Source: Ulota crispa
Lineage: Eukaryota; Streptophyta; Bryopsida; Orthotrichales; Orthotrichaceae
Reading direction: 5' to 3'
Assembly (NCBI GenBank): GCA_963920765.1
Contig: OY987248.1
Coordinates: forward strand, 13,116,539-13,180,538
DNA: 64,000 nucleotides
The notes beneath the pieces are model-generated. The model did no database searches. It was not told the DNA's origin and saw only the letters and a list, made by a program, of their open reading frames with translations. Below, one piece after another: positions 7,394-58,015 of the stretch (positions are counted from its first letter, which is position 1; each line of letters begins with the position of its first letter). A program made the position numbers and the translations under genes.

Positions 7394-7704
7394 TGAACCC
7401 TTAAAAGACGATAAGACATAGTATATATGTTGTTGTATAATTGGTATTTGCTACCAATAAGAAGTTTTAATTTGGGTCCTTTAAAAGACAATAAGACATA
7501 GTATATATGCTGTCGTATAATTGGTATTTGCTACCACTAAGAAGTTTTAATTTGGGATCTTAAGTAGCTCACTAGAACTTTGATCTAATCTCCAACTTTG
7601 TCATTGATCTCACATGCAATAAAGGTGTGAATCTATTCCAAATACAAGAAAAACACCTTGTATTCTATTGGTTGCAGCGGCACGCTCCGTCCTTTAGGGG
7701 TTAA
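7394..7704. mobile_element. TTAA-type MITE, group E (about 0.23-0.31 kb)
   Basis: The left end is TGAA followed by CCCTTAAAAGACG; the right end is CGTCCTTTAGGGG followed by TTAA, forming inverted repeats. It is related to the copies at 23139 and 27369: they share a GGTATTTGCTACCA-like core and an AATAAAGGT motif. This copy is longer because its first 80 bp are tandemly duplicated (7398-7557, period 80). It has no coding capacity. The TTAA border and CCC-initial repeat suggest piggyBac-type movement. Confidence 0.7.
7398..7557. repeat. 80-bp tandem duplication inside a MITE
   Basis: Two adjacent 80-bp units, nearly identical (for example TTAAAAGAC at 7401 and again at 7481), include the terminal repeat of the group E MITE. 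The second unit therefore creates an internal false terminus. Confidence 0.85.
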
Positions 7705-8417
7705 ATTCAGTTATTCAAGCTACCGTAAACTGTATCCTTCAATGGATTGATGAAGCTAGTTGCATGCAGGTTATGAACAGAGTAGTATTGGTTACTTTAA
7801 AAATGTGCATGAATTTGTGCACAATCATCCAAACTATGGCATTATCGTTTGGCTTTGATATGTTTTTGAGGGGTCATTTTCGGCAATTTATAACAAAAGA
7901 AAGGGGATATTTTTTTGGCTTCAAGAATAATGCTGAATCTGAATCCTCAATTTCATTTAGCGAACCTCTCACTTGCTACATCTTACGATGGTAAAGTCTT
8001 TTGGGTTTATTTTTGCCTAAAATAGGGTGTACACTAAAGATGCCCCAACTCTTTGTAAACAAGAGGTACATTTTGAGTTTTTCAATGTAATGGTACTGAA
8101 TTTTTTGGGTACCACAAAGGGGTAAGTTTTGAAATTGTCAATGTAATAATTTTGACTTTATTTTTTTGGGGTGGGGACACACCTCCATTTTGATTTTGAA
8201 TATACATACTTAGTCAAGTCAAAAAATGTGCATTAAAGTGAATTAGTCGACACTTCTACCTGTGTTTCAAATATTTTTTTTGAAAGAATCTTGTGCAATT
8301 GAGTTTCATTCTTTGGCACTCTAAATAATCTGTATATTTGGTATAGTAATATCAACATTAGTGTGCCCCAAATCGCCATTAAGGAAGGTAATCACCTCTA
8401 TTCTTGCACTATGATGC
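7705..8417. other. Spacer between two MITEs, nothing seen
   Basis: AT-rich sequence with T-runs and no coding or structural signal. Confidence 0.5.
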
Positions 8418-9332
8418 TTAACCCTTTAACGACCACACCCATTTTCACAGAATCCACTGAAAACAGGGGTTGTAAACTTAGATTTGGAATTGACTCAAAT
8501 ATGGACCCATTTTCAGTAATCCAACCGTACAAATGGGAAGTACACCTTATTTACGGTAAAGCACCAAAATTTCAGCTAGATCTACCATTGGAGGTGAAAT
8601 ATTATAATGATTGAGTGAGCCATATGCGGAAAATCTCTTGTGTTTCATTCTTGTTTAGTTTTGAATGTTAACCTTTCATGCAAGCTTTGATTGAGAAAAG
8701 CCTTACATTTCTAAAAAGCAGGGTTTCCCACCTTTTCAACAAGACTAGTTTCACACAAAATAGACAAGAATAGCAATCACAAGGTGTAGCTAAGTGGACA
8801 AAAAGGGTCAAAAAATCCACTTTCTTTGCTACCCTAAAACAGTTCTACAAGAAATTTGATAATTATTCTGGAAAATCGAATAGCTGAAAACAATCAAGAA
8901 TTGGCTTTAGATGAAAAATGACAAATTTTAAAGCCAAAATGTCAACAAAATTTCAGTAGATTTTCAAATACTACAATTATACTACTACTATATATGAAAA
9001 CAATACAAGTGTATTTCTTAAGCAATTTGAATTTTTTTAGAATTGTGCAATTGAAATTTGACATTCTTCTTGCATACTTGATGTATTGTGTTGTTGCTTT
9101 GATCCATCTTTGACAAAAATTGGATACGTATTTTGAAGCCATGCCGTATAAACACCATTATTTATCAACTCACATACCCAATTGCATTGTTATTTTTTTA
9201 GATGGATGCAAAATTCTTGTGATCACATGCGTACTTCAAGATCAAATTCCAAATTACTGAGCAATTTCAACCTACATGCCAAAAACCACTCCGAGCAACC
9301 AAAATATGGTCGCATGGTCCTTAAAGGATTAA
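8418..9332. mobile_element. TTAA-type MITE, group A (0.9 kb)
   Basis: Bordered by TTAA on both sides. The left end reads CCCTTTAACGACCACACC and the right end is ATGGTCCTTAAAGGA before TTAA. The copy at 52117-53017 is alignable along its whole length in the same orientation, with shared internal blocks such as CAATCACAAGG and AGTTCTACAAGAAATT. That full-length match with ends at TTAA defines the element boundaries. It has no transposase and would need one supplied in trans. Confidence 0.85.
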
Positions 9333-11664: not shown

Positions 11665-13645
11665 TCACTCCTCGCTGATGCGACGCTTTCGAGTTCGTGT
11701 ACTAACTCCTTGATCTTTGTATTGTGTTGGCTCTGGCTTCTCGTATAAGCCTTGCTCTTTCAGCCTATTGATCTTATCCTCCTACACCATTGAACTCAGT
11801 CTTAATGACAAAAATAAAATATGTAACGAACACCACACTAACCTCAAAGAAGTGACAAGCACGGTCACACACACCAGAAATGAAACTGGTGCTGCATCTG
11901 TAAATTGTTCTACTATGAATTTCATGTACAAGCTTTAAAAAGAAGGGAAAATTTCATGGATACCCCTGAAGTTTGCAATATTTACATAATACCCCTGCTT
12001 TTTCAGAAATTGCACAAATTCCCTTGGACCAAAATTATCAGGCATTTGTTTTATTGTACATGCCACTTCCCCTCTTCCTTTGTACGCATGTTGCTTCGTT
12101 TTTGTTTCATTACATTTCCATTCTTCAACAATAGTCATGAAGGAAGTACAAGCACAACAAATAAATGCCTACAAATTATGGTCCAAGGGTATTTGTGCAA
12201 TTTCTGAAATAGCAGGGGTATCTGTGTGAATATCGCAAACTTCAAGGGTATCCATAAAGATTTCCCTTATGAGTATGACCTTACTACAAAGCGTAGCTCA
12301 TAATTCTGACATATGATTGTTTCAGACATGTGCACATCACATCACATTTAACAAGAAGGTTGTTTTCCAGTTTTCTCACCTCATCACGTTGTTCGTTGTC
12401 CACACTCATGGAAAGCAAGTACCCGCCAAATGCAGCGAAAGCGGCGAGCATTACTACCAGCGCAACTGCACTAGAAGCCGTGATCCACATGGTCTCCTCC
12501 TCCATAGCTCTGATGGGGCCCGCAACCTTCCTGCTCCTCCGTCTTCCTATTCTACCCCTCCATACGTCCGCAACAAAACCTTGCCTTGTGATACATGGCC
12601 CCATTTTCACTGCACATCAGTCAGGACCTGCAAGAGGTTTAAATCGCCGAGGAATAGATTGGTTGCCATTAAATACAAACCCTAATCCGACGAAAATACC
12701 AACCTAATTGTCTCTTTGCCTATGAAACATTGGTACTATGGTGGTCAGAATGACGAGCTAAGCTTTGAAATGTTTTAAATTTTGTATAACGCACTAAAAT
12801 TGAAGAGATCCTCAGCCGCTGCAACACATACAAAATATTAGCAAAATCCTCTATAATAAAATTTAGGGCTTAGTCGTCCACAGATGACTTCAATTGCCAT
12901 GAGAATTTAGGGCTTCTACACTGAACTTTTCGAAGAGAAAAAGTTAACCCCTGAAGGACCAAGGTTTCACCGATTAAAACAACCAGTTCGATTGGTCGTA
13001 TTGTGAAAATATAAATTAAATGAAGCAAAATTTTATATCATTAGAATCCGTGAAGAACACTGGCGAAAAAACAAAACAAAACAAAACAAAGTTGAACCAA
13101 AAAATAGTCCAAGACAGCTAATAAAAAGATATTCACAATTCAAGTCTTTCCCTAACAAGTTGGTAAAACATGGAATTTTTGAAAAACAAAGACATAAATA
13201 GAAATTCATTTATATGTTACGCTCATCAGCTTGTTGACATTGTTCAGTACTTCTATCACATTCCCTGGAAAAATTGTGTCCACTTCTATTGATTGGAAAC
13301 AAGCTGGATTTTCCTTTACTGAGGTATCCAGATACACACCAAAGAAAATTATCAAAGCAAAAACAAGCATTCTCAGAGAAGGTTTTGTAATTTACCTGCA
13401 CGGTCTCCGTAGCTTTCCTCACTGAAATTCGTCGTCAAGACATTCTGGTGACTGCTAGAAGCCATTACTACTACATTGCGCGGCAACGAGGTGCTTCGTT
13501 TCCACGTTCTCAGCTCAGCGCCATACCCGAAACTCTTCGGTGGCTGAAGTCTTCGGTGCCGACTACATTGCCATGACCAGAGTGCCGCCTCTTGTGTAGA
13601 AACGAAGCATTGGCTCGAAACACTCGCTACAGCAAGAGCTACCAT
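11665..13645 (-). CDS. Predicted plastid-targeted single-membrane-span protein, 198 residues, unidentified
   Basis: Three exons on the minus strand: 13645-13396, 12609-12380 and 11781-11665, with GT-AG borders and one continuous frame (83 + 77 + 38 residues). The N-terminal 60 residues are rich in Ser, Ala and Arg and lack acidic runs except two Glu, like a chloroplast transit peptide. Next come a basic stretch (RGRIGRRRSRK), a hydrophobic segment of about 20 residues starting at WITASSAVALVV, and a charged tail ending RTRKRRISEE. The exon joins keep a clean frame and the C-terminal exon looks genuinely coding (EDKINRLKEQGLYEKPEP). I do not recognise the family; a thylakoid or envelope membrane location is inferred. 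An in-frame ATG 24 codons upstream (13717) is possible, but the internal ATG gives the more typical transit peptide. A further small exon in the 786-bp first intron cannot be excluded. Confidence 0.7.
11943..12268. mobile_element. Mutator-like MITE inside an intron
   Basis: A 326-bp element whose two ends are about 110-bp inverted repeats starting AAGGGAAAATTTCATGG and carrying TACCCCTGAAGTTTG. Long inverted repeats beginning GGGAAA and containing TACCCCT blocks are typical of plant Mutator-like (MULE) MITEs. It lies in the second intron of the minus-strand plastid-protein gene. No exact 9-bp target duplication is visible, which suggests an older insertion. Confidence 0.75.
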
Positions 13646-14376: not shown

Positions 14377-14495
14377 TTAACCCGTGAGCGGCCAGCCCAT
14401 ATTCATCAAAATCTAAACCCACTCATATTCAATCCAACCAATGGTAGGTGAGACAAGCTCCAAAATATAAGGAAAATGACAAACAATTTGACCGT

Positions 14496-16639
14496 TGTCA
14501 GGTTGAGAGGAGCGCGCCTTGGGAACACGCAGGGTGTCTTGCTGCAATCGTGCGTTGCCGATTAAAATCGTTTTTAATCTTTATTTTCTCTTCAAATCTT
14601 CAGTCTTCAGTCTTCTGTTAACATATCCTATGGCTCGCTCTAAGGATATAAGGGTCAAGATAGGGATAAGAGCCCACTGGATACGGGACGGATAGATCGA
14701 GACAGCAGACACAAGCTGCCGTCCATATGACGGGATCCTAAAATCGAATTCACGATCTGCTGGCCAAAACTCCAGATCGTGAGAACAGAGCAAGTCTCGA
14801 CCATGTGGGTGATCAATCCCACTTCATCACCACGACAATAAATGGGGTTAAGTTTGGTTTAACCCAAACTGCCCGTAACAAGGTTTACAAAACAGAATGG
14901 AAATAAATTGACAAACGAGCTTCCAAAACCGGCTAGAAATAACAAAACCACATCCCACACATACATAAAAAATAAACCCAAAACATTCCTCTTGAAATCT
15001 TCATATCTTCAGATCTTCAAGTTTTCATGTCTTCATGTTTTAATAAAAACAATGGGGAAAATCACAAATAACAAATTCTAGAAAAGCTGCGACCTTTTAT
15101 TTAGTGCCACAGATGGCTCAAGGATCCAAATGCTAAGTGCAATAGCAATTTGAAAAGCTCTTTTAACCTTTTAACATTTGTTCAAATTTCAACTCAATTT
15201 AAGCTACTGTCCAAAAGTTATGCGGGTTCAAAGTAGAGGCTCTTCTTCCTCCTTACAAACTAAACACTGCCTCTATAAACCTCTATAACTTTTGTTCTAT
15301 ACGTCACCCATAGAAACATGATATCAATTTAGAAAGATGATATCATTGGCTATAATTCATAAAATTTTCATTTCAAAATAAAACTTTATCCGAAAGCTCT
15401 AGTCAATCAAAGTGTGGGTCTCAATTCTTTAGAGAGCACCCAAACCTCTAACTTCTATCCACTATAACTTCTTCAATAAAACTCCAAATGAAATGGTTAA
15501 AGACAATTCAAAAAGCTATGACAACAAACTATTATTTCTAAAAATTTGAGAAGAAAATCTCATACTGTCCAAAAGTTGTAACTCTTCAAAGTCTTGCCCT
15601 TCTCTTAACAAAAAGGCAGCCACCTCCAAACCTTCACACTTCCATAACTTTCTCGTCCAAGCTTCAAATCTCAAGTTTAAGGACCTTCTAGAAAGCCAAT
15701 ATTAAGATAAACACTTTTTTCAAATCTTGCTACAAAATGATATACAAATCATAAGTTATGGCTTGTCAAAGTCTCAGCCTTTCTTCATAGTTTGGCTTTT
15801 TGACTCCAAAATTCAAACACTCATAACTTTTGCATCACAACTCCAAATAAAACTTGCAAACTTATTTTGAAAAGGTAATCACACAAGGAACAATTTCCTC
15901 AAATTTCAATTCAAAATCATGTATACACAAAAATAAATCTCACATCAAAGTTTTGGGATTTTTCCCCTTCTTCCCACCAACACTCATATACTAACTTCCA
16001 ACAACTAAAGAATCTTTTTTTTCATAATTTCGACTCTATCTAAGGTAGGGAGGTGGGGCACATCAGCCCATGCTCCTCCCTATCCTAACCCCACCATAGA
16101 TGTCAAATCTTTTTTCTTTTCACACATTTCTCATTCACTTCTAAATCCTTAGTATTTTTATTCAAACAAAGGTAAAATATATGAGCCTTCCAAAATATCT
16201 AAATAAACATATGAAAATGATTAAGTTACAAAATAAACACCATCGTAAAGTGGCCACGTGCCTTTGCGAGCATATAATAGCGTCAAACGTTTATCTTCAG
16301 TCATCAAGTCGTGAACTTGGTTGGTTGGAGAAGCGGTCGTTTCTGGCCACCCGCTGGTCCGGGTTCGAATCCCATCGAACTCGTCGAGCGGTGATAGCGG
16401 CTCACGGCTTGGCAGCTAGTGAGGCAGGAAATTGGCCCAGCCAACCCGCTACCTACCCCCCTGAGCTGTGCATGTGACAAGACAGCGCAGCGCATTGAAA
16501 TCTATAGCCGCTGCGCTGTCACCAAACCGTGGTCCTCACCACGACCACTCATTTTGCCTCAACTATTGATTTATTGAAATCAATACAAACATAAATAAAT
16601 AACAAGTATTTACAGGATGGAGGAATCTCCATCAGGACA
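14496..16639. mobile_element. LTR-retrotransposon remnant: solo-LTR-like element, copy 1
   Basis: A 2144-bp unit starting TG and ending CA, flanked by a 4-bp direct duplication (CCGT). The empty site can be read from the related MITE at 56049. A second copy of identical length lies inverted at 38304-40447. It has no internal retroviral-type genes, so a solo long terminal repeat or a non-autonomous derivative is the best reading. The middle kilobase holds loosely repeated blocks around the words AACTTTTG and GTTATAAC. The strong similarity of the two copies suggests a recent age. Which end is 5' is not certain. Confidence 0.75.
16250..16606 (+). repeat. tRNA-derived (SINE-like) segment inside the LTR-type element
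   Basis: GGTTCGAATCC at 16362 is a perfect RNA polymerase III B-box. About 40 bp upstream, TTGGTTGGAGAAGCGG resembles an A-box. Further blocks (GGCCCAGCC, CTGAGCTGTG) recall the body of plant Au-type SINEs. It is present in both 2144-bp copies, so it was incorporated before they dispersed. It is not a functional tRNA gene, since no cloverleaf closes around it. Confidence 0.5.
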
Positions 16640-16729
16640 CCGTACCAATAAAAAATTTATAACATATCAAACAAACAGAACTTTTTCATTTTTGAGCGCT
16701 CCATTTTGAAGTCCTGCGGCACTCACGGG

Positions 16730-17388
16730 TTAGCCCCTAAATGCCTAGGGCACCATATTTTGGTGCCAATAATATTTTGAAGTTCAATAAATCTTTATTA
16801 AGCTGTTTTTTTAGTATTTAATATTTAGTATTTTAAAATTATTAGTTTTGAAGTCTAGTTGTAGCATCAAAAATCCGATTTTGAAAATTATTGAGTGTGA
16901 ATTTTCAATTCAAGATTTTATGCAAGGGTGTCCATTGCAATCCTGACCTTTTAGTGTTGAGAGTTCATGAAAATGAGCCTCAAATTCACTAGATCTTGGA
17001 GAAATTTTCACACTAGAAATTCATTTTAAAAAACCGTAAAAGAGATTTTGAAAAGCCGTAAATAGATTGGAGTTATGTATGTTATATCCTTTAACCTCAT
17101 ATTTTTTTGGTGACCAACATTTTAGATTTGACATGTGAAAAGAGGATTGAAAGACTTGAAGTCACTTTTGGAGTTTTAACACCTTCTTGATTAAACATTA
17201 TAATCTTTCAATCCATAAGTGGTATTATTGTGTTTTCTTTTCCTATGAGATGTCTAAAATATCTAATTTGAATTTGTACGGTTACAATTTTTTAAAAATT
17301 GATACAACTTATCAAAATGTTGGCTTTTTGTTTAGTTTAGAGCAAATTTCTAGAAGCTCAGAAAAGGCCTTGGGCATTTAGGGGTTAA
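16730..17388. mobile_element. TTAA-type MITE, group B (0.65 kb), copy 1
   Basis: The ends are TTAG-CCCCTAAATGCC and GGGCATTTAGGGG-TTAA. It is alignable with 18562-19206 (inverted) and 54547-55197 (same orientation) over the whole length. The inverted repeats extend about 20-25 bp (CCCCTAAATGCCYAAGGCAC). It has no coding capacity. It abuts the group F element and uses the same target tetranucleotide. Confidence 0.88.
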
Positions 17389-19405: not shown

Positions 19406-19635
19406 CTTGTTCAATATTCTCTCCTACACTTTTGCATGTAAAATTTAGAGTACAATGGGGTCTATTTTGTTTTTATGTTGAAGCTCCCCAAGGTTGTTTT
19501 CTTTCATAGTTTTATCACTGCAATTCTGAAAGTCGTAGAATACACTTTCTTGCAATGTTTGTGCATTTGCATAGTGTGATTGTAAGCTCAATGTATACCT
19601 CTGCTTTTTGTATAAGCATATGTTTGAATTTAATC

Positions 19636-21175
19636 AAGGGAAATTATCAAAAATAGGCTTGACAATTGGCCGTATTTCAAAAACATGCCTCACAATTGAA
19701 AAATATCAAAAATAGGCCTCATGGCAAGGTCCATGAAAAGAGTATTTTTAGTTTATTTCCTTCAATTCCCAAACTGGTTCATCAAGGATGTTTTCCATTA
19801 TTTTCTCTAATTCATACTATAAATGTAAAAAAGAGATTTTTAATCAAATTTTTAGCCAATGTTTACAAATTGCAAACGGCCTTTTCTCATTTCAATCAGC
19901 TAGCTTTGAACTAGCCATGGTTTCTCCCAAGACCTTGGGCCTCATCATATACCAAAAGTAGGCCTTGCAACTAAGGTGACAAAATTTTGTGCATGTTTAT
20001 TTATGGGAATTGATATGAGCACACCCGCGGTTTGATATATGCACACTAGGGGAGGGGTAAATTTTAAATGTTTTGCCATCAAAAAGCTAAATTTGGAAAA
20101 TTTGAATTCAATTTTGGATTTAAAGACCTTGATTTAGTCTAAAACCACAATGGAGGTTCCAATTAACTCCACCCAATGGAAAAGCTTAGCTAGAAGGCAA
20201 TTTATTACTATTACNNNNNNNNNNNNNNNNNNNNNNNNNNNNNNNNNNNNNNNNNNNNNNNNNNNNNNNNNNNNNNNNNNNNNNNNNNNNNNNNNNNNNN
20301 NNNNNNNNNNNNNNNNNNNNNNNNNNNNNNNNNNNNNNNNNNNNNNNNNNNNNNNNNNNNNNNNNNNNNNNNNNNNNNNNNNNNNNNNNNNNNNNNNNNN
20401 NNNNNNNNNNNNNNCGCGGTTTGATATATGCACACTAGGGGAGGGGTAAATTTTAAATGTTTTGCCATCAAAAAGCTAAATTTGGAAAATTTGAATTCAA
20501 TTTTGGATTTAAAGACCTTGATTTAGTCTAAAACCACAATGGAGGTTCCAATTAACTCCACCCAATGGAAAAGCTTAGCTAGAAGGCAATTATTACTATT
20601 ACCCTTGTTTGTAAAGAAAGCTAAGCTTTTCCATTGGGTGGAGTTAATTGGAACCTCCATTGTGGTTTTAGACTAAATCAAGGTCTTTAAATCCAAAATT
20701 GAATTCAAATTTTCCAAATTTAGCTTTTTGATGGCAAAACATTTAAAATTTACCCCTCCCCTAGTGTGCATATATCAAACCGCGGGTGTGCTCATATCAA
20801 TTCCCATAAATAAACATGCACAAAATTTTGGTCACCTTAGTTGCAAGGCCTACTTTTGGTATATGATGAGGCCCAAGGTCTTGGGAGAAACCATGGCTAG
20901 TTCAAAGCTAGCTGATTGAAATGAGAAAAGGCCGTTTGCAATTTGTAAACATTGGCTAAAAATTTGATTAAAAATCTCTTTTTTACATTTATAGTATGAA
21001 TTAGAGAAAATAATGGAAAACATCCTTGATGAACCAGTTTGGGAATTGAAGGAAATAAACTAAAAATACTCTTTTCATGGACCTTGCCATGAGGCCTATT
21101 TTTGATATTTTTCAATTGTGAGGCATGTTTTTGAAATACGGCCAATCATCAGGCCTATTTTTGATAATTTCACTT
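19636..21175. repeat. Long palindromic (fold-back) element, interrupted by an assembly gap
   Basis: The sequence from about 19636 inward is repeated as its reverse complement ending at about 21175. The innermost arms (to 20579 and from 20620) enclose a 40-base loop. Ends AAGGGAAATTATCAAAAA resemble Mutator-like or fold-back termini. Arms are about 555 bp once the gap artefact is removed, and there are no coding genes. The identical 82-codon frames in the two arms are simply mirror images. Confidence 0.85.
20215..20414. other. Assembly gap (200 N) bordered by a direct repeat
   Basis: Exactly 200 N bases. The 187 bases before the gap (20028-20214) recur right after it (20415-20600) with a one-base difference, so the gap sits in the left arm of the palindrome. 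The true gap length may be zero or negative, with the flanking copy duplicated in assembly. Confidence 0.95.
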
Positions 21176-23138
21176 CAATCAATTCTCCACTATGTGTATT
21201 CTTTGCTCCTGTAGAGAATCCCAATCACAAAATTAAATACAAATTGGATTGTGAATGTTTTCAAACCAGCGTTAAATTTTTTGGCAAATTTTTGCCAAAA
21301 TCTTACTTCAAACTGGCCAATGCGAATGGTACATTAAGAAATTCGGGTAGAAAAGTGGATGAAATCGCAAACTCCCTCCTTGTGCAAACATCAGATTTGC
21401 CATCTTTTGGATGAAAGTAGCTTATATTAGCAAACTTGTTGGATGAATGTGGACACATCATCCATTCATTCCAATTATAACCATTTTTTCTTTACATGTG
21501 TGTGTTATGGGGTGCAAATCGCTCTACCCTGAAAAAACAAAAAAAAAACCTTGCCTGAATTGTGAAGGATGAGAATGTTTGAGAAATAAGCTTACCGAGA
21601 CTTAACAACAATTAACTATAGGATGCATGCCACTTCAAAATGACAAGCATATGCAAACCCTCTCCCCGCCATTAGGAAATTTGCCCTGCTGGCACTTTCA
21701 TGAGCAATGAAATACCAAAGTAGGAGCAAAAATGTGATTGCCCCTCACTTACAAGATATACTGAGATTACGGGATCCTAAATTTGAAAAGCTGCTCTGCC
21801 GACCCACCAGTCCTTGGTACAAGGATCAGTTTTATTTTTTCATAGCGCTCTTTACAAATGCCAAGTGCAAATGGGGCATTAGCGTGACAGTGAAAGCCTC
21901 TTCTTTACATCTTCTTCATATGGAAGGCAAACAAAAACCGCAATTTTTTTTCAAAAATTATTTGTGTTTTTAGGCATCATTTGTAGTTTCCATTTATTTT
22001 AATCTACCAATGCCAACACCTCTATGTCATTTTGGTAAAAAAAGAAAGTAATTTTGAAAATCTCATAAAATTAACATGATCACTCAAGATAGACATGCAC
22101 ATAGTGCAATACATCAGATAAGTTCCACCAAAAGAAAGGGGGATGGGGCATATGGGACTAATAAGAACATAATCTAACAATATTGTTAGTTTTTAGATAA
22201 CACCTACATCAGTTCACAAACTTCCTATTGCACATCACCAACATGCCTTTAAATTGTGTGATCCAAATTGCAAGATGTAATTTGGCGTATTTGAATATTG
22301 ACCAACAGAGCAATACAACTCATGAAGCACAAGATGACTAAGCATAAAACACACATCACCACAAGATGAATCAATACTTCAAGGAAATTGGTGTTGAATT
22401 AACAAATAATTGACAAAATCCACTGGTCAATCAATTAGAATTGGATTTTGCACTGTTCACGTTGTCAATTACAGTAGCTACATTCTTGGCTATGACTTGG
22501 TAGACACTTTTTGAAGATGCGGTAGGAAATCCATCTACCTGAACTATGGGCCATTCCTAAAAAAAGATTTTGCCATAAGATACCAGCTGATTTAGCATTC
22601 ATTGCCCGTTACTTTTGTAGTTTTACCCCACGCGTTCACTAAACAAAGAATACCTGTTTAGGCGCCTTTGCCGATATTAAAATAGAAGTCACTTTCATTG
22701 ACAATACTAGACATGTGCCATAAAGTAACTAAATATAACAATTTTGGGTGTTTTTCCTTCTGGATATTAGATATTATGAGGAAAATTACACAATATTGAA
22801 GAAATGATTATTGGCAACACTCTAGCATTCTAAAAAGAACCACAAAATACCAAAAACAAATTCATACACTCCTTACTGTTGAACACCTACAAATGCAAAA
22901 ATTTCAAACAACGCAGGAAGATTTTTTTTCAAAACTTAGAAATGTTCATCATAACAACGTTCTATTGATTTAAACTTTATTGGCTTCATTGTGACTATAC
23001 CAATGTACACGTCAATACTACATATGCATACCAATGACAAAGAAGACATCCCAATTCCTACTTGCTTCAATACCTTACTAATATTAACAATGCCTGATAG
23101 ACAACATCTTATAGAACCCTGTAACAACCTACTATAGC
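21176..23138. other. Intergenic DNA on the left side of the CACTA remains
   Basis: AT-rich, with no convincing gene. The 3' terminus of the CACTA transposon should lie here or slightly to the right, but no CACTACAAG-type end is recognisable. Confidence 0.45.
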
Positions 23139-23367
23139 TGAACCCTTAAAGGACAACGCTCCTATAATACATATGATGTACGTTGCTGGCATTTGCTACC
23201 AACAAAAAGGGATCTTCACTACCTAAATAGAACAACATTGACCTAACTTGTATTCTAAATTCCTTCTTGATCTGAAATGTAATAAAGGTATGGATGCACT
23301 CCAAATACAAGAGAATTACTCCATATTGTACTAGTTGCAATGACCTGCTCAGTCGCTCAAGGGTTCA
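23139..23367. mobile_element. TTAA-type MITE, group E, copy 2
   Basis: 229 bp, TGAA-CCCTTAAAGGACAACG at the left and CGCTCAAGGG-TTCA at the right. It aligns with 7394-7704 (minus that copy's internal duplication) and with 27369-27605. The border tetramers TGAA and TTCA are inverses of each other rather than direct copies. Confidence 0.7.
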
Positions 23368-25075: not shown

Positions 25076-25081
25076 GTACTG

Positions 25082-26220: not shown

Positions 26221-27155
26221 ACACCAATCACGGATTATGAAGGATGCAACGTTTACCCTCTGTACGTCTCCAGAGGCTCCGTGTTGTCCAACACAAAAGT
26301 TTAGATAAGGTTCATGAACTTAGCAGTCATTGGTCGTTTTTGCTTTCCAACTCTGGGTAGTTCATCAGTCATTTCAAGCTCCTCATTCTCGTCCCAAGCT
26401 CTTTTTGTTGTTGCAGCATAATCCGCTAAGTACTCATTCAAGAATCCAATGGATTCATCCCATAAGTACTCTAGAACCATACTACCCTCCGGTCTGGCCT
26501 TGTTTCTCACATAGCTTTTCAAGGTTTTCATAAACCGTTCAAACGGGTACATCCAACGAGTATGTACAGGGCCACATAAAAACACCTCTTCCACAAGATG
26601 AATAGGAAGATGCATCATTATAACGAACATTGACGCTGGTAATTCCTTCTCTAATGAACAGATGGTCTCTGCCACATCCATAGTCATTTGTTCCTTCATG
26701 CTGGAATCCACAACCTTGGAACATATTCTCTTAAACAATCTACTAATACAAATTATGGCCCCCACAATTGCAGGATTTCCAATGTTCCTTAGGCACATTG
26801 GTAGAATCTGCTGCATCAAAATGTGGTAATTGTGAGATTTTAACCCCCTCAACTCACCATCTTGAATCCAATTGCCAAATGGAATGACATAATTTGACGG
26901 AAACTTTATCCCCTTCAGCATATTCAAAAATTCAAGTTGATGCTCCTTGGATAGAATGTAGGGCGTGTCTGGCATGAAATATGTATTTTTGGATGGAGTT
27001 AGTCGCAAATGCAAGTGTGGCCTATTTCCACGAGCGCATAAATCCTCTCATAATTTCACTCTGTCTGTCTCCCCAAAGAGTGTTTGAATGATGTTGTTGC
27101 AAACATTTCTTTCAACATGCATTGGGTCCAAAGTATGCCGTGCTGGCAACCCCTG
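26221..27155 (-). pseudogene. tnp2-type transposase, DUF4218 region
   Basis: A probable exon starts after an AG near 27155 with LPARHTLDPMHVERNVCNN, matching the tnp2 pattern RHNLDVMHIEKNVCDN. One in-frame TGA follows, then 237 open codons (27014-26301). These show DUF4218 hallmarks in order: GLKSHNYHILMQQILP, AVV-like IVGAI, ICSLEKELPASMFVIMMHL, VHTRWMYPFERFMKTLKSYV, and RNKARPEGSMVLEYL. The frame stops near 26301 although similarity (FVLDNTEPLETY) continues past it. Parts are still highly open, so decay is moderate. Confidence 0.93.
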
Positions 27156-27368
27156 CATCACCAAAACGTCCACATCAGCATAAGAACTACGTCATTGTAA
27201 AAAACAATACTTTGGTGTTTCAAACCATTACATGTGCTACCAAATAAAATACAAACTATGTCGATCCAGATAACCCCCACCTGTGGTAACCTTCTAGAAG
27301 CACTGCCTTGTATCTAATTATGTATGTTAATTGGAATTCTGTGGTTTGGTAGTTGTTAACTCTACATA

Positions 27369-27605
27369 TTAACCCTTATAAGACCAAACTATAGTAATAC
27401 ATATTCTGTACTACAATGTATAACCAGCCCTTGCTACAAATAGAATGTTTGACATTAGGTACCTCACTAAAAAAGCATTGACTTATAGTCCAACTTCAGT
27501 ATTCCTTTCAAATGTAGTAAAGGAGAGGATGCACTGAGAATACACTAAAGATACACGGTACTGTATTGGTCATAAATAGTTCCTTTGTTTGATAGGGGCT
27601 CAGTA
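27369..27605. mobile_element. TTAA-type MITE, group E, copy 3, in a transposase intron
   Basis: It starts TTAA-CCCTTATAAGACC and shows the group E core (CTTGCTACAAATAG, GTAGTAAAGGAGAGG). The right end is worn. It lies within the intron of about 1.27 kb that separates the tnp2 core exon (ending near 28424) from the DUF4218 exon (starting near 27155). Confidence 0.6.
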
Positions 27606-40447: not shown

Positions 40448-40451
40448 GCGT

Positions 40452-42961: not shown

Positions 42962-43903
42962 TTAACCTCTAAAGTACTATGACTATGTTTCACCAAAAAA
43001 ACACTCAAAATGGGTCAATTTGATAGTAAAGGCAAAAACAATTGAAAATGAAATCTTGGTACAATTTATTGTGGGATCTAGTAGTACACTACTATATTAG
43101 TACACTACTATAATATGTTGTAATAAAAAGATGAAAGATCTTTACCGCACAAATTGTAAGATTATAAGGTTTAAAGTGAGAAACTAATTTTCTTAGGGAC
43201 ATTCAAATTCTAGGCAACTCTAGTTTGAGGAGGTTTTTGCACCATTGGATTTCACTTTTTTTATTATAATTTTTCAAATTTATTTTCACAATAGAGCTGG
43301 TCATATGCATAAAAAAATTCATGTCTTTTGAACTAGGGAACACGTACAAAAAAAAATACAAAACTAGCTTCAAGAAAGTTCTCATACAAAGTTGGTTTTT
43401 CAACAATTTTAGCATTCACATACAATGATCTTTTGAGAATGTGAATGGGGGAGGTTTAGATTTTAGCTAGCTTTAGAGGAGGAAAAAAAATGAAATCAAC
43501 CAAAAATTGTGACTTTGACAAGCTTGATCAACTTAGGGCCACTTCTAACAAAGCCAAAGTAAAGGGCACTAAGCAAAAACAATTGCCTTCATGGAATGAG
43601 GTTGGGTCAGATTTGAGAAGGAAATATCTTTGTTCTTCAACTTTTGGGCAAAATCTTGGAATTTTATTTGTAATAAAAAAAAACATAGCTCAAGTTGCCC
43701 CTTGAGCAAACAAAGCTACATACTCCATCATAACTTTTTTTCTACAAATCAAAATGACATAAGAATTGTTGCATTGAAAATCCACACATTGAACAGTTCG
43801 TTAAAAGATTTGTGAAATTTTATTTATTATTTTACAAGTACTTGCCTGCCCAAAAATTGCTTTGTTACCTAAAAAAAACATTGTTCAAGACTTTAGGGGT
43901 TAA
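42962..43903. mobile_element. TTAA-type MITE, group D (0.94 kb), copy 1
   Basis: TTAA-CCTCTAAAGTACTATG at the left and CAAGACTTTAGGGG-TTAA at the right, 942 bp. It matches the element at 53724-55318 once the nested insert there is removed: same length and the same near-terminal word CTGCCCAAAA before the right end. No coding region; the poly-A/T runs are typical. Confidence 0.85.
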
Positions 43904-45456: not shown

Positions 45457-46370
45457 TTAACCCCTAAAGGACCATGGTCTTTATTTTGTCAAAAGACACG
45501 CAAAACTGCCACTTCTATGGCAAAGAGTAAATGTTTTTGAAAATTGGTCTTTTTGCATATCTGACCGTAGGATCTTGTACAAGACTAGTATGAGAATGTG
45601 TCATACAAAACTCAAGAACTTTGACCAAATAAATTGGAAGCTTTCTGCATTCAAAGTGTAAAAAACAAGGTTTTTTTGCACCTTGCATGACTAGATTATT
45701 TAACTATGAACTTTTTTGATTTAAAATTTTTGCACCACAGAGTTTGGAACTCTATTTTATTGTGGGGAGAAGCTGAGTTGGCAATTTTGGAACAAAAAAT
45801 AAAACAAAACATTCTTAATTTTCATTCTTAAAAAAAACATTAGGTAGAAGAAGGTATGAAATTGAACAAAAACTTAAATTGTTAATAACCCTGCAATGGA
45901 ATTGAATCGCAATAATCCCAAAAATAAGATTGTTCTAGAAAGCAAACTTCAGCCTTTCCAATAGTTTTTTGAATAAATGTTAAATTTGCATTCAAAATGA
46001 AGTGTATAAGTTATTTTTTCCAAAATATGCTTGAATTGCCCAAAAAACAAGATTGTCCATAACTTTCTCATAACTAGTCCAAATAGAATGAATCAAAGCT
46101 TTGGATGTAGACAAAGATATGATCTATGAGAAAAAAAAATCAAGTTTTTGTAGATTTATTTTTGCTGCCCAGACTCTCCAAGTTTGTGCTTGTTTGGGCA
46201 TAACTTTTGCTTCCTAGCATTGATTGGAATAAAAATTAGATTCCCCAAAAGCTCATGTGTTTTCCTATCTTCAAAAAAAATTCAAAAAATATGAACAAGA
46301 ATTGACGTTGTAAGTACTTGCCCAAAATCCCATTTGTCCCCTGTAGGGACAATAGTCTTTTAGGGGCCAA
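45457..46370. mobile_element. TTAA-type MITE, group C (0.92 kb), copy 1
   Basis: TTAA-CCCCTAAAGGACCATGG at the left and AGTCTTTTAGGGG-CCAA at the right, 914 bp, the right-hand TTAA being altered by two bases. It is inverted relative to 51009-51953; internal shared words include GACCGTAGGATCTTGTA near one end and TTTGGGCA near the other. Related at lower similarity to group D. Confidence 0.85.
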
Positions 46371-48678
46371 TTGAGTTTCTATCAATGTTTGGAGAGAAAT
46401 TTGTAATTAACTAGATAAAATCTATTATTTCAAATAAATAAATCAATAAATTTCTCATATTGAAGTATAGCATATTACATTTTTTTTTTGGAAAAACTCG
46501 ATTGATTTTTATCCAATATTCTCAAGTTTCAATCAATTTTTTTTGTTGTTTCAACAAGTTGAATTTGTATTAATAACTAGCTTTTCATAATCACTGAACT
46601 AAGCCTCCCTTTCATAAACTCTGACAACTTCAACCAAGTGTCTTCATAGCTAAAGAAGGGTGTGGAATATTTGTGCATAAATAAAAAATTTTAATTGTCT
46701 TGATTGCATTTGCAAGAAATTTTGGCTTTTGCTTGATTTGATTTCTATCTAATGTTTACTTTTTTACCATAAAAAATAATTTCAAATATGTCAAAAAAAT
46801 TAAAGCACAAATTAAATGTTGCAAAAAACCATAGTGTTTATTTTTATTAAATTTAACATGTTAGTTATTGATTTTTTTTGCAGTAAGTAATGTGTACAAA
46901 CTTTTCATTGTATATTACTTATGATTTTGATTGCAAAACAAATTGAAGTCATATAATATCAAATTATAAACATACCATTGATTATTTTAATAAAACAAGA
47001 AGAAACACACTTGACTATTGGGACATGTCCATTAATGAGTGCCAATCCAAAGGATTGCTTAGACATTATGACGCAAGATTTTGTCGCAATGTACACAAAT
47101 TATATGACAATCAATTCAAAGAGTTACAATAATTCACAAGGAAGTAATGAAAAAAATAAGAAACTAAATCAAATAATTGGAAATAGATTAAAACACTAAT
47201 TCCACAATTTTAGGTTATAGATACATCTTCAAAAGATAAGAAATCAAATTGGTTGATAAGTAATCTTCAACTTTTTTTTAATGCTTTATTATTTAATGCT
47301 TATTTTTTTGTTTATGTTTAATTTACCTTTGTATATTTTTATTTATTTTTAATCTACATTTGTATGCTTTTGTACAAATAAAACATTTTTAGATTTTTTT
47401 GTGCGTTAAAGTTTCATTTATAAAAAAAACAATTGACTTAAAGTTTTTTGCTAAATAAAATAAGTGTTTTTAAAAATCAAACATTTTATTGTAAAAAATT
47501 AACAAAACTCATTTTTTAAAATGTTGACATCAAATTGTAAATTTGATTGCTTTAATGATTTTGAAACTAGTAATGTTGCTAAAATCAGTATTATGATGTT
47601 GCTTCATAGATAAAGCAATGTCTTGTGATACCACTAAATAAGCTCTTGTAGTTATTAATGCCGTTTTATTTATGGTAAAACATGTTTTTTTAAAGAGCTT
47701 TTCATAAATATTGCTGTTCTACTACTTTGGTTTTGAAATTAAATTGTAGGTGAATTTTTTCAATCTTTAATATATCAACACCACAAATAAATTGTTTGCA
47801 AAAATTATTATATTAAAATTTTTTTGAAATATGATCCATTATAAATAGAAATTGTTTTTTAATGCAATATCGATTTTGTTTGTAATATATTTACATTGTG
47901 CTTATAAATTATTTAATAAAATTACAACAATTAAATACTCAAAATTCTTTCAAGACATTATCAAATACTCATTTTCATTTTGTAATTACATAATTTTTAA
48001 AGAACAATTGAAGTAGTACATTTTATGTTTGAAACTCAAGTTGTAAAAAGGCTCATATGTGCTATTAAATTGAACTAGCAACGCAATTTCATATGTAACA
48101 TTGATAAATAAAAAATTCATTTTATCTTAATTTTTCTATATTTATTCATAATTTTGCACGTTTAGACAATTACATGTCTTGTCATTTTGATGCATCAATT
48201 CTTAGATTCCTATTTTTTGCATGAGTTAATGCCCTTCTAGTTGCTACACATGGTTTTAGCTTTCTAGTTGCTTGCACTGTATCATGGCACTTCAATTGCT
48301 TCACAAGATCATAACCCTACTTGCCATTCCAACTCTATCATGTGTTGTACAAGATCATGACCTCTTTGATAATTTTTTTTCTCTGACCCTAATACAACCT
48401 CATTCCATGAATGCAACAAATTTTGCTTATTGTCATTCACTTTACCTTAAGATCTTGCCTTGTATTAATCAAGTTTGTAAGCCACAATATTGCTCAATTT
48501 TTTGTTTTCCTTCTTTTAAAGTTAGTTCAAGGTTAAAACTCCTTTGTTTATATTTTGAAGAGTTTTTGGTATATGGAAGCCAAACATTGTTGAAAAGGGC
48601 GTTATATGATTTTTCTTTGAATGTTTTCAAAAAATACTATTTTCCACTTCAAACCTAAGAATCTCACAATTTGTGCAA
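46371..48678. other. Very AT-rich spacer, no gene
   Basis: Dominated by A/T runs. A 128-codon plus-strand frame at 48272-48658 has no recognisable motif and lies beside a microsatellite. Confidence 0.5.
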
Positions 48679-49030
48679 TTTTGTTTTTGTTTGTTTTTGT
48701 TTGTTTTTGTTTGTTTTTGTTTGTTTTTGTTTGTTTTTGTTTGTTTTTGTTTGTTTTTGTTTGTTTTTGTTTGTTTTTGTTTGTTTTTGTTTGTTTTTGT
48801 TTGTTTTTGTTTGTTTTTGTTTGTTTTTGTTTGTTTTTGTTTGTTTTTGTTTGTTTTTGTTTGTTTTTGTTTGTTTTTGTTTGTTTTGTTTGTTTTTGTT
48901 TGTTTTTGTTTGTTTTGTTTGTTTTTGTTTGTTTTGTTTGTTTTTGTTTGTTTGTTTGTTTGTTTGTTTGTTTGTTTGTTTGTTTGTTTGTTTGTTTGTT
49001 TGTTTGTTTGTTTGTTTGTTTGTTTGTTTT
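48679..49030. repeat. Microsatellite: (TTTTTGTTTG)n followed by (TTTG)n
   Basis: More than 20 copies of a 10-base TTTTTGTTTG unit (to about 48890), a mixed zone of 10- and 9-base units, then about 20 pure TTTG units (48948-49030). The long open frames across it on both strands are composition artefacts. Confidence 0.97.
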
Positions 49031-49144
49031 TTGTTTTTTGCTATAGGGTAACAAAACACATTACCACTACAATAATACCTACGGTGGAGTACACCAAGAA
49101 ATCATACTTTATAATGATTTGACTTCTGTTATCAAAACAACTCA

Positions 49145-49192
49145 TTCTAAGTGTTTTTTGGTGAAACATGGTCAAAACACTTTAGGGATTAA
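49145..49192. mobile_element. Isolated end of a group D TTAA-type MITE
   Basis: CAAAACACTTTAGGGA-TTAA preceded by GGTGAAACATGGT is the inverse of the left terminus of the group D element at 42962 (ACTATGACTATGTTTCACC). The partner end is not recognisable. The microsatellite may have expanded inside this element, which would lie to the left. Confidence 0.55.
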
Positions 49193-51008: not shown

Positions 51009-51953
51009 TTAACCCCTAAAGGCCCAAGTAGTCCTTTGGGGTCAAGTGGGGTTTTGGGCATGTACCTATAGGTAAATTACTTTATGTGATTTTTTTAAAT
51101 TTTTATGGAAGATGGGGAATTCAAAGATATGCGTAGATATTTAATTTTTTCTTTTGTTTGACATTTATTGAAGAAGTTATGCATGAATAACTAAAAGGCA
51201 GGGGAGAAAGGGACAACCAAAAAAAATTGCATTTTTCTAAAATAAAGATCTGGAATTTGTTCTCTAAATTTTTATATATGTGGGAAGCTTTGATTCATTC
51301 ATTTTTTTATTAATGAGATGAAAGTTATGAGAAGTTTTAGTTTGCAGGTAGGTATGGGACTCCCAAACCTCCATTCCTTTTGTCCCTTGTAGAATTTGGT
51401 GCTTTACATTTTTGAGATTTTTTTGTATTTTCTTTTTTGGCTCATTTTTTTTCCAAGTCGTAATAGACTAAGATTCCTTGGTTTTCAACATTTGGATCAA
51501 AGTGATTCAGATTTCTCAATTTTACAGAAATCCTCCAATTTTGCCTAGTGTATATTTCATGGCCTTACAGCATTACAAGATGTTACAAAGTATGATCCAC
51601 ATCTCCAATTCATTTGAAAATTCTCCCACTCTCACCTAGCTTGGTCTTCTACATGGGAAAAAAAAACCTCAACTTTGCGTAGAGCAATTTTTTTAATATA
51701 GGAATGGTCAAAGGCTTTTGAAATTTTTGGGCAGCACGGAAAAAAAAAATTATTTTCACTTTAAATGTCAATATCTCACTTATGTACATCTTGAATGAGC
51801 TGATTTTTTTTCCATAAGTACCTCCCATAGTCTAGGGCAAAATCTTACGGTTGAATTTCCAAAAAAAAAAATCCTACCTTTCTACTCATTCCCCCAAAAG
51901 TGGCAGTTTTCAGTAACTTTCACAAGAAAAAAGCTTGGACCTTTAGGGGTTAA
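51009..51953. mobile_element. TTAA-type MITE, group C, copy 2 (inverted)
   Basis: TTAA-CCCCTAAAGGCCCAAG at the left and CTTGGACCTTTAGGGG-TTAA at the right, 945 bp. Both TTAA borders are intact and the terminal repeats match over about 16 bp. Homologous to 45457-46370 in reverse orientation and to 57097-58015. Confidence 0.9.
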
Positions 51954-52116: not shown

Positions 52117-53017
52117 TTAACCCTTTAAAGACCACACACATTTTCCCAAAATCCACCAGAAATCAGGGCAATAAGATTAGATGTGCATTTGAAACATGTA
52201 TGGACCCAATTTGAATAATCCAACCGTACAAGTGTGAAGGGCACCTTGTTTGTTACAATGCATCAAAATTTCAGTTAAATTTACCATTGAAGGTGAAATA
52301 TTATAATGATTGAGTGAGCTGTATATGGAAAATCTCTAGTTTTTCATGCTTGTGTGGTTTAGAATGTTAGCTCTTCATGCAAACTTTGATTGAGAAAAGC
52401 CTTACATTTCTGGAAAGCAGGGTTTTGCACCTTTCTAGCAAGACTAGTTTCACTCAAAATAGACAAAAACAGCAATCACAAGGCGTAGCTAAGTGGACAA
52501 AAAGGGTCAAAAATCTCATTTTCTTTGCTACCCTAAAACAGTTCTACAAGAAATTTGATAATTGTTACGGAAAATCCGATTGGTGAAAGCAATCAAGAAT
52601 AGGCCTTAAATGTAAGATGGAATTTTTTTAAAAATAAATTGATAGCATCATTTCAATGGATTCTCAAATAGTACAATTGTATTACTACCATATAGAGAAA
52701 CAATACAAGCGTATTTCTTGAGTAATTTGAAGTTTTTTAAGATTGCACAATTGAAATGTGGCATTCTTCTTGGATGTTTGATGTATTGTGTTGTTGCTTT
52801 GATCCATTTTTGACCAAATATGGATATGATATAAAAACACCATTATTTACCAACTCCCAAATTTGATTCTATTGTTGTTTTTTGGGTTGGATGCAAAATT
52901 CTTGTGATCACAAGCATTCTTCAAAATCATTTTTCAAATTATTGAGTGATTTTACTGTATAGGCCAAAAACTACTCTCCCAAACCAAAATATGGTTCGAT
53001 GGTCTCTAAAAGGTTAA
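52117..53017. mobile_element. TTAA-type MITE, group A, copy 2
   Basis: TTAA-CCCTTTAAAGACCACAC at the left and GATGGTCTCTAAAAGG-TTAA at the right, 901 bp. It aligns throughout with 8418-9332, including CAATCACAAGGCGTAGCTAA-type blocks and the dinucleotide context around TTGATTGAGAAAAGCC. It lies only 163 bp from the preceding group C copy. Confidence 0.88.
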
Positions 53018-53723: not shown

Positions 53724-54224
53724 TTAATCCCTAAAGTTTGAAGCTAAGTTCTTCACCAAAATTGCTTCAAACTTGCCATTTCTAGTACAAGTATCAAATT
53801 TTAGATTTTTTTTGACACACATAGTCGCGAGATCTTGTACTAAAATAGTATCAAAAGATGTGCAAAAAAAATAAAAATTTCCACCATGTAGATTCTTAGA
53901 TATCTAAGTTTGAATTGACAAAAAGCCATTTTTTGTCCTTGCAAAAATATAGGCAGCTCCACTTCACAAGGTCAAATTCATATGAAAAAAACTTCAAAAT
54001 GGTTGTAATTCTTTGGACTTGTTCTTCAAAGCAAGTTGAATACACACTTGAAAAATTTCAAATCATTTGGAATTGTACAACACATGGGGAAAAACATAGT
54101 AAGTAAAATGTAGAGAACGATTCAAACCACTAAATTGCTTGCTAAATTGTTAAGTACTTAATTATGAACATGAAAAATTCCAACTCCAATGGTTGAAATG
54201 TTGTTATAAACAATTTTCATCCTT

Positions 54225-54255
<31 letters not shown>

Positions 54256-55318
54256 CAAAATATTAAAAATTGAGTAAAATAAAGGGTTTCAAAATTTATT
54301 TTAGAACAGATAATTCATAATTGCCCGCAAACAAAGTCTCCTCATAACTTTCATCTCATTGATAAAACAAGAATGGTTCAAAGCTTTCCATGTATATATA
54401 AATCTAAAGAACTAATTTCAAAAAAAAGAAGTTTAACATGTAATTTTTAAAGAGTTTTTTTTGTTTGTCCGACGAGCAAAGAAAACTACATGTCATGCAA
54501 TAACTTTTGAACCATGTAGTCAAAAGCTATGAAAATTGTTGAGACTTTAAGCCCTCAACGCCCAAGGGGCTCAAATTGCGCCCCGGTAAATTTTATTCTA
54601 GGATGCCCAAAGTTTCTTCAAGATTTTTTAGTGGTTATTGTTATAATTAAATTCTTATTGAAGTCTAATTTTAGCATCAAGAATTTGATCTTGAAAACAA
54701 ATTAACATGATTTGTCTATTCAAAATTTTGTGCAAGGGTGTTCATTGCAAATCTTCACTTTCTAATGGTGAAGGCTCTTGGAAATGAGCCTCAAGTACAC
54801 TTTAACTTGGAGAAAAAATCACCTTAAAAATTCATTTAAAAAAAATGTAGAATAGATTTTGAGAAGCTGTAAATTGATTGGGGTTATGCATGTTAAACTT
54901 TACATACTCATATTTAGTTAGTACCCTCAATTTTAGGTTTGAGATGCAAAAAGAGGATTGAAAAACTTCAAATCACTTTCACCGTTTTAACACCCTCATG
55001 ATCAACATTATAATCTTTCAATCCATAAGTGATATTGTTGTGATTTCTTTTCATATGTGATCTATAACATGTCTACCTTGAACTTGTACGGTTATGTTTC
55101 AAAGAAAACTGATAAGATTGATCAAAATGCCGGCATTTTGTTCACTTTCAAGCAAATTTCAAGATACTCCAAAACTCCAAGAACGTTGAGGGGTTAAGCT
55201 ACTCTCTGGACACATCATGTGTGAAATTTTCAAAAAAAACAAAAAAACCCGTTTGTAGTGAGCTGCCCAAAATTGCTGTGTTCCCAAAAAAAACTAAGTT
55301 TAAGGCTTTAGGGGTTAA
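53724..55318. mobile_element. TTAA-type MITE, group D, copy 2, carrying a nested MITE
   Basis: TTAA-TCCCTAAAGTTTGAAG at the left and AAGGCTTTAGGGG-TTAA at the right. The gross length of 1595 bp includes a complete 651-bp group B element at 54547-55197. The net length of 944 bp equals that of the group D copy at 42962. A run of about 28 T occurs at 54228-54255. Confidence 0.85.
54547..55197. mobile_element. TTAA-type MITE, group B, copy 3, nested in group D
   Basis: TTAA-GCCCTCAACGCCCAAGG at the left and GAACGTTGAGGGG-TTAA at the right, 651 bp. It is homologous along its length to 16730-17388. Both borders are TTAA and the host element resumes directly on each side, so insertion at a TTAA in the host is visible. 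Confidence 0.88.
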
Positions 55319-56048: not shown

Positions 56049-56297
56049 TTAACCCCTGAGCACCTAACCCATGTCCTCCAAAATCTAAATCCAACCAAAC
56101 TCAATCCAACCAAATTGTCATCACGGACAAGATCCACAAAATCTAACTATATAGATTGGTAGGGGAGACCAGCCTTGAAATACAAAAAAAAGGACAAATG
56201 ATTTGACCATACCAATAAAAACATTATAACTATCAAACTTGCAACTTTTTGAATTGTGAGAAGCAATATTGGGGGCATTGGGGCGCTCATGGGTGAA
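56049..56297. mobile_element. TTAA-type MITE, group F, intact copy
   Basis: TTAA-CCCCTGAGCACC at the left and GGGGCGCTCATGGG-TGAA at the right, 249 bp. It serves as the empty-site reference for the LTR-type insertion in the group F copy at 14377: here ATTTGACC runs straight into ATACCAATAAAAA. Confidence 0.75.
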
Positions 56298-56420: not shown

Positions 56421-56429
56421 AACAGTTTT

Positions 56430-56640: not shown

Positions 56641-56774
56641 GAATGGGAAAGAGATAAGCTTACGACCAATCAGAGAAATATTGCTCTTACTGAACTTGTA
56701 ATTCAAACTAGATCCTGCTATTTTCATTAGTCTAGAACAAGAATTGCATTGCATCAACCACGTGTAGGCTATAG

Positions 56775-57083
56775 CTCCACCAAATAGTGCATTTAGATTG
56801 CCTTAACAATTAGGTTGTCGCACCTTGGCAAAGTTATCTCATGACTCACCTTGGCCACTTAGAGGGGCATGTAACTCTCTTTATGCTATAGTAAACCCTA
56901 ATTCTATTTAAAGTTTCAGCTTCCTTGTTTTGACACTTGTTGCTGCACCCAACCTTACCTCACTTCCTATATTTGTACCACAGTAATTATTGACAAAAGT
57001 TATTGTAGTCTTACTGAATATTTAAGTAGTGTGAAATGTCAAGAAACTAGTATGGGACAACCTAAATGCACTGTTTGGTGTAG
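56775..57083. mobile_element. MITE with GCATTTAGGTTGCC inverted repeats, copy 1
   Basis: The left end CACCAAATAGTGCATTTAG is matched by the inverse at the right end (CTAAATGCACTGTTTGGTG), about 309 bp apart. Its relative at 62318-62637 shares TTGCCTTAACAATTAG, TTTGACAAAA and the right-end GGRCAACCTAAA. No coding region. It lies 13 bp before the next TTAA MITE. Confidence 0.65.
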
Positions 57084-57096
57084 AATATAATATTTT

Positions 57097-58015
57097 TTAA
57101 ACCCCTAAAGGACCAGACCCCTTTTTTAGAAACATAGCGATTTCAGGCAGGTACTTGTGATTGGAGATTTTCATATTTTAGGCTGAAATTTTAACAGAAT
57201 GTGGGGATGAGGTTTATCTTTCATATGCACTAAATTTCATGACATTTAGAATTATGAGTAAAAAGTTACGGCCTAATAAGTTGCTTTTTACGTTCTATAG
57301 GCAGCTTGGGCAGATTTTTAAAAATCAAAATTTTCAAAAACAAAAATTTGAAATTGGCTTAGGAGATTTATGTGACGTAGGAAGCTTTAAATCATTCCAT
57401 TTTGATCAACGAGATGAAAGTTATGAGGACTTTTTGTTTGCAGGTAGTTATGGATTCTCTACTCTAAAATAAACTTTGAAGTCCTTTATTTTACTCAATT
57501 TCCAACATTTTAGAAAAAAACAAAACCAAAGGATGTAGATTGTTTCTTACAACATCATGACCATTGGGATTGGCATTTTTCATTTCCATATTTAAATTCT
57601 TAACAATTTAGTGTTTTGAATCATTCTCTACTTCTTTTTACTTACTAATTTTTTTCCATATGTTATATAACTCCAAATGATTTGAAACTTTTTTGACATG
57701 TACTTTACTTAGGTGGAATAAGGAATTTAGAGAAGCACCACCCACATGGCCTTTTTTCTTTAGGAATTTCACCTTCTGAAGGGTAGCTGCCTGATTTTTC
57801 ACAAGACTTTTTTGAATATGCAAACCATTCTAACTTCCAATCCACGTGGTAGAAAACTCTGAAATTTTTTCCACGTCTTCTAGAACCATTCTTCTACAAG
57901 ATCCTACGGTCACATATGCATAAAAATGTTTTTGTTTTCAAATTTGGTTGATGCTCTAAAAATAGCAATTTTGAAGAGTTTTGGTGAAAACTTTGCTTGG
58001 TCCTTTAGGGGTTAA
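57097..58015. mobile_element. TTAA-type MITE, group C, copy 3, upstream of a plastid-protein gene
   Basis: CCCCTAAAGGACCAGACC at the left (preceded by TTTTTTAAA) and GCTTGGTCCTTTAGGGG-TTAA at the right, 919 bp. Homologous to 45457 and 51009. It ends about 300 bp before the TATA box of the gene at 58428, so it forms part of that gene's upstream region. Confidence 0.88.

Follow-up and report, generated by a model that had tools for sequence, protein, structure and literature searches.

Very probable non-autonomous piggyBac elements in a moss nuclear genome, with DDE_Tnp_1_7-encoding relatives as their presumed mobilisers

The window (the whole stretch of DNA that was analysed, 64,000 nucleotides) lies in a moss nuclear genome of 274.8 Mb in 157 contigs and carries a series of short repeats bounded by CCC-initial inverted repeats. 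The assignment to mosses rests on an organelle contig: the plastid accD matches, at 93% identity, a cluster whose representative is the moss Timmiella anomala, while Sphagnum, Physcomitrella and some entries from liverworts reach 85%. The genome also encodes a radial-spoke protein (PF04712), the gene for which is expected in plants with swimming sperm, and a zygnematophyte or seed-plant host was rejected on the strength of this gene and accD. The rbcL gene, whose protein was ambiguous as to lineage, is on the plastid contig C157, and a partial RuBisCO large-subunit match was also seen on a small contig (G000:C97:118173-118940, L095), within a 964-aa open frame. The elements of the window were as follows, the letters denoting groups.

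7394..7704, E1: MITE with borders TGAA and TTAA and an 80-bp tandem repeat inside
8418..9332, A1: MITE with TTAA at both flanks, 80% identical to A2
12944..12964, plus strand: further single end, TTAACCCCTGAAGGACCAAGG, for which a partner was looked for and none was found
14377..16733, F1: short MITE with a TTAACCCGTGAGCG end and a 2153-bp insert (14493-16645) that divides it, the right border TTAG being common to B1
16730..17388, B1: MITE with CCCCTAAATGCC ends and borders TTAG and TTAA
18562..19206, B2: MITE with TTAA at both flanks, inverted relative to B1
23139..23367, E2: 229-bp MITE with mirror-image borders TGAA and TTCA, without TTAA
27369..27600 (end approximate), E3: E-type copy closed on the left only, with TTAACCC
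42962..43903, D1: MITE with TTAA at both flanks
45457..46370, C1: MITE with TTAA on the left and CCAA on the right, at most 86% identical to the genome copies compared
48390..49192 (start approximate), D3: D-type copy closed on the right only, by GGGATTAA at 49192
51009..51953, C2: MITE with TTAA at both flanks, matching both ends of the transposase-bearing L046y
52117..53017, A2: MITE with TTAA at both flanks
53724..55318, D2: MITE with TTAA at both flanks, with B3 inside it
54547..55197, B3: MITE within D2, with 42 unoccupied paralogous counterparts among the matches listed
56049..56297, F2: MITE with TTAA on the left and TGAA on the right
57097..58015, C3: MITE with TTAA at both flanks, 89% identical to a copy in L020

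A scan of the window with TTAACCCYTAAARGRC, a pattern picked after inspection of the data, gave 27 sites at up to 3 mismatches, whereas 20 first-order Markov sequences averaged 4.95 sites (maximum 12), and four of these sites (1194, 52065, 59488 and 59599) fell outside the elements. Thirteen elements could be delimited on both sides; with the nested B3 and the 2,153-bp insert of F1 subtracted, they span about 9.2 kb. F2 is a fourteenth closed element, left out of the border tally that follows, while D3 (end at 49192), E3 (27369) and the single end at 12944 could be placed on one side only. The first-pass annotation had described MITEs, about fifteen in number and covering roughly 9-10 kb, that have TTAA borders and CCC-initial inverted repeats, and this observation was confirmed. 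Self-BLAST of the window bore out its further statement that copies align within groups, and also aligned D2 with C3 at 69% identity across about 700 bp. Groups A and E have ends which start CCCTT, and those of groups B and C start CCCCT.

TTAA was found at 20 of the 26 sides of the 13 closed elements, with eight elements having it on both, so that the description of the borders as mostly TTAA stood, but not for every element. The six other sides were the left of B1 and the right of F1 (TTAG), the right of C1 (CCAA), the left of E1 and of E2 (TGAA) and the right of E2 (TTCA), and in C3 an additional A separates the left TTAA from CCCC. E2 is the clearest misfit, having no TTAA on either side and mirror images in place of a TTAA repeat. 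A CCTTTAGGGG at 25680 was considered as the right end of E2 and dropped, as by eye it adjoins other inverted ends and E2 closes at 23367. No longer flanking duplication was visible by eye at the 13 closed elements, as the first-pass annotation had also said.

Other features of the window lie in or between these elements. The insert of F1 is one of a pair of inverted 2,153-bp copies (14493-16645 and 38298-40450) with 99% identity; by eye, the copy within F1 runs from TG to CA between repeats of CCGT, and is perhaps a solo LTR. A broken CACTA-like transposon on the minus strand (26301-29702), with matches to Transposase_21 (2.9e-55) and DUF4218 (1.6e-31), spans E3, and D3 contains a long low-complexity TTTTGTTTG-like tract (48620-49050) in which several frames are open. 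Nested inverted repeats of 98-100% identity flank a run of Ns at 19626-21185, perhaps as an assembly artefact, and a large inverted repeat with arms 84-87% identical runs from 61315 to the window edge at 64000. A partial gene for a SWEET-type sugar transporter (PF03083, 1.4e-14) lies at 4780-5115, and an Rfam search of the window gave zero matches at gathering score.

The ends of the window elements are abundant in the genome. The C-type 14-mer CCCCTAAAGGACCA has 8,876 genome copies, its reversed control having 0, and is directly preceded by TTAA in 7,555 of them (85.1%); the 12-mer end of group B, CCCCTAAATGCC, has 5,148 copies compared to 6 for its control, and 4,241 of these (82.4%) have the TTAA, forming the 16-mer TTAACCCCTAAATGCC. 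When 17 C-type copies were compared, 13 had a partner across at least 80% of their length, with best identities of 75-90%. A much smaller element of 79 bp, running from TTAA to TTAA, was seen at G000:C1:241512-241590 (L007 2645-2723) with group-B ends that are perfect for 14 bp past the TTAA, and facing end pairs 72-79 bp apart also occur at C1:531562-531640, 3324724-3324795 and 3362792-3362870; all of these are possibly minimal piggyBac MITEs. In L026, where 3.4 kb lie between C ends, the longest ORF found was of 99 aa.

Matches to the profile of the piggyBac transposase (DDE_Tnp_1_7, PF13843) numbered at least 120 at no fewer than 116 places in the host genome (best E 1.3e-73), a lower bound since 116 of 528 candidates were scored. 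No match was found in the 14 control genomes, a weak control because its five named members are prokaryotes. Four host ORFs exceed the Pfam cut-off for DDE_Tnp_1_7. Two ORFs match the piggyBac and piggyBat transposases of known structure, with E values from 5.8e-17 to 2.6e-24. Three aligned Asp residues, which we take to be the catalytic DDD triad of piggyBac, were all kept in 22 of the 33 host loci and not in the other 11. Most of the 120 matches listed hold stops, 10 rows being stop-free.

Of 30 loci scanned to a distance of 1.5 kb from the transposase, 26 lacked any end with 2 or fewer mismatches, and the remaining four showed 2-mismatch sites only. Six of the 30 loci, selected for DNA similarity that runs far between copies, were extended outward, and for five of these both ends were located; their inverted repeats begin CCC and, TTAA excluded, measure 11-16 bp with up to 2 mismatches.

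L032x, 5,746 bp: transposase-bearing element with B-type ends, closed on both sides
L042x, 5,456 bp: transposase-bearing element with B-type ends, closed on both sides
L029x and L038x, about 5.03 kb: transposase-bearing elements with CCCCTCATCGCC-like ends, closed on both sides
L046y, 8,530 bp: transposase-bearing element with C-type ends and an 11-bp repeat, closed on both sides

TTAA was present at eight of the ten sides of these five elements, the exceptions being the right of L042x (TTGA) and the start of L038x (TTCA). The homology between L029x and L038x (90%) and that between L032x and L042x (77%) end at, or within 2 bases of, the element ends. The sixth locus, L054, has a left end only, and its homology to L046y stops at 6728, near a TTAACCCTTGAGCG end at 6740. 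Three piggyBac-bearing loci (L054x 6253-6659, L032x 2542-2946 and L042x 6095-6476) contain a palindromic element of about 400 bp, which in L054x has TTAGGAATT at both flanks by eye.

The genome search that the first-pass annotation had proposed, for elements with the same ends that encode a DDD transposase, thus led to DDE_Tnp_1_7 in five closed elements, and its question of whether this is a plant piggyBac-like system can be answered with such elements in a moss genome. Transposase-bearing relatives elsewhere in the genome were found for some of the groups: among the window groups, only the B- and C-type ends also enclose DDE_Tnp_1_7, while comparison of A, D, E and F with the transposase-bearing elements read gave no match, and no parent was found for them. 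The idea that one transposase serves all the groups did not hold, as end sequences differ among the three sets of transposase-bearing elements (CCCCTAAATGCC, CCCCTAAAGGA and CCCCTCATCGCC-like), and there appear to be several transposase lineages with different ends and not one.

It had also been proposed that the groups share little but their ends because one transposase recognises the ends alone; C2, however, shares more than the ends with its parent. The left end of L046y is matched by positions 504-945 of C2 (73%) and the right end by positions 1-177 (76%), the orientation being consistent, and 357-945 also align to L054y (74%), so that C2 and its parent have hundreds of bp of subterminal sequence in common beyond the ends. 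Being collinear with both ends of L046y, C2 reads as an internal deletion of this 8.5-kb transposase-bearing element. The B elements gave no match to the interior of L032x or L042x and thus have only ends in common with them. The activity is probably old, because most of the listed transposase matches carry stops and the identity between C2 and its parent is about 75%; the C-type copies, a small sample of 17, and the window copies (at most 89% identity) give no sign of recent movement, which may nonetheless have occurred.

The first-pass annotation had looked to a single TTAA at orthologous empty sites as support for a TTAA duplication. When the flanks of B3 were joined, at least 42 places matched across the junction with 82-90% identity (40 of 3,967 candidates scored); these are other D-type MITE copies, so the sites are paralogous and not orthologous. 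A single TTAA was found in 19 of the 20 unoccupied sites inspected (18 TTAAA and one TTTAA), but the remaining one (L084) reads TTCAA. The TTTAA copy, L091, reads T-TTAA-gcta and has the arrangement expected prior to insertion into D2, its single TTAA corresponding to the two that flank B3 in D2; the TTAAA of the other 18 is one base off the D2 arrangement. The other 13 of the 14 junctions submitted had no spanning match among the 40 scored of 3,967 candidates, a scoring depth at which they may have been crowded out. TTAA appears to be the target, duplicated upon insertion, with E2 not fitting this rule.

A tree was made of 50 proteins, comprising 32 of the 33 host loci and 18 of 25 database proteins from a single search with L039, shorter ones being dropped. 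The 32 host transposases group with four environmental proteins (P0001-P0004; support 99/96), apart from the 14 others, which include one ant and one moth protein. P0001-P0004 are nested within the host diversity and so the branch is not restricted to the host genome. L032/L042 and L046/L054, with ends that begin CCCCTAAA, fall in one seven-row subclade (98/93) with L029/L038 elsewhere, which suggests, for three end types only, that the ends and the transposases diverged together.

It is very probable that the window repeats are non-autonomous piggyBac elements (MITEs) in the moss nuclear genome, mobilised by relatives that encode DDE_Tnp_1_7. A DDD transposase of the piggyBac superfamily, encoded by the 5-8.5-kb relatives, would recognise the short ends, cut the element out at TTAA and insert it at another TTAA, which would become duplicated, and MITEs can originate from transposase-bearing elements through loss of the middle part, as the alignment shows for C2 only. 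The common ends, the transposase homology and the unoccupied sites with one TTAA are results of this analysis; the cutting chemistry and the mobilisation in trans are presumed from known piggyBac biology, and we infer the same explanation for groups A, D, E and F from their ends.

A TTAA target is also used by Sola3, and the MITEs could on this account belong to that superfamily; elements with B- and C-type ends, however, carry DDE_Tnp_1_7 proteins which match the solved piggyBac proteins, and both ends of C2 are in common with the DDE_Tnp_1_7-bearing L046y. Sola3 is unlikely for groups B and C, and as an explanation of the MITEs we consider it highly improbable, although Sola3 elements may be present elsewhere in the genome. 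Stowaway-like Tc1/mariner MITEs that duplicate TA, prefer TTAA and start A-CCCC would be written T-TA-[ACCCC...GGGGT]-TA-A, which is formally identical; neither an empty site of TTAA nor the sequence by itself distinguishes a TA duplication inside TTAA from duplication of the full TTAA. What decides is the piggyBac transposase of the parents together with the TTAA context: a bare TA target leaves the outer bases free, whereas the full TTAA precedes 85.1% and 82.4% of the C- and B-type ends. This makes a Stowaway-like origin extremely improbable.

It is also conceivable, though unlikely, that groups B and C are piggyBac and some of A, D, E and F are unrelated to them, with ends alike by convergence or chance. 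The missing parents would agree with this, as would ends which differ past CCC(C/T), the TGAA/TTCA borders of E2 and the single TGAA of both E1 and F2. Against this, other E-type and F-type copies adjoin TTAA (L015 and L010), variety of ends exists among the transposase-bearing elements themselves (L029/L038), and D2 aligns with C3 across about 700 bp (69%).

The piggyBac elements are a cut-and-paste family that is best known from, and described mostly in, animals, and a major tool of genome engineering. In animals, piggyBac-like MITEs are short elements that keep the parental ends and TTAA, and the Tourist and Stowaway MITEs of plants are short, non-coding and numerous with inverted repeats, but have 3-bp or TA duplications and other transposases. 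The moss MITEs are similarly short and numerous with inverted repeats and differ from Tourist and Stowaway in duplication and transposase; they differ from the animal piggyBac-like MITEs in that several groups coexist in a land plant with two end types in thousands each (counted in this genome alone). The moss system is like the piggyBac superfamily (PDB 6x67, piggyBac; 9c0f, piggyBat) in transposase homology, TTAA target and short CCC-initial inverted repeats, and presumably also in the Asp triad, and differs in that its host is a moss and its transposases lie on a branch with four environmental proteins.

In the parts of the literature seen, piggyBac elements are given inverted repeats of 12-19 bp beginning CCYT and TTAA duplications (PMC10175614), compared to which the B- and C-type ends of the moss start CCCCT with one extra C and the repeat of L046y is 11 bp, and the five closed moss elements are longer, at 5.0-8.5 kb, than the 2.23-3.52 kb given for the piggyBac elements of bees (PMC10140906). 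The fern Ceratopteris is also a land plant with PiggyBac-labelled sequences, the repeat table seen giving 1,230 copies, 122,417 bp and 0.00% in a row without element anatomy (PMC6890710), and the portions seen of three papers name plants among piggyBac hosts only in passing (PMC8086355, PMC10140906, PMC10813416). None of the full-text literature matches listed described piggyBac elements from a moss, a scope outside which most subscription papers fall and which leaves absence unproven; the matches to the word in one moss genome paper were to "piggybacking".

What surprises is the host and the scale, not the mechanism. We put at about even the chance that mosses have a piggyBac lineage of their own, deep and diversified, whose transposase subfamilies and end sequences co-diverged, with elements down to 79 bp and among the largest piggyBac MITE populations of plants. 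A moss with more than 100 transposase matches and thousands of ends shows that piggyBac has thrived in a land plant. Annotators of plant genomes gain concrete ends as search targets, and the moss system supplies naturally matched transposases and ends with which the evolution of recognition can be studied.
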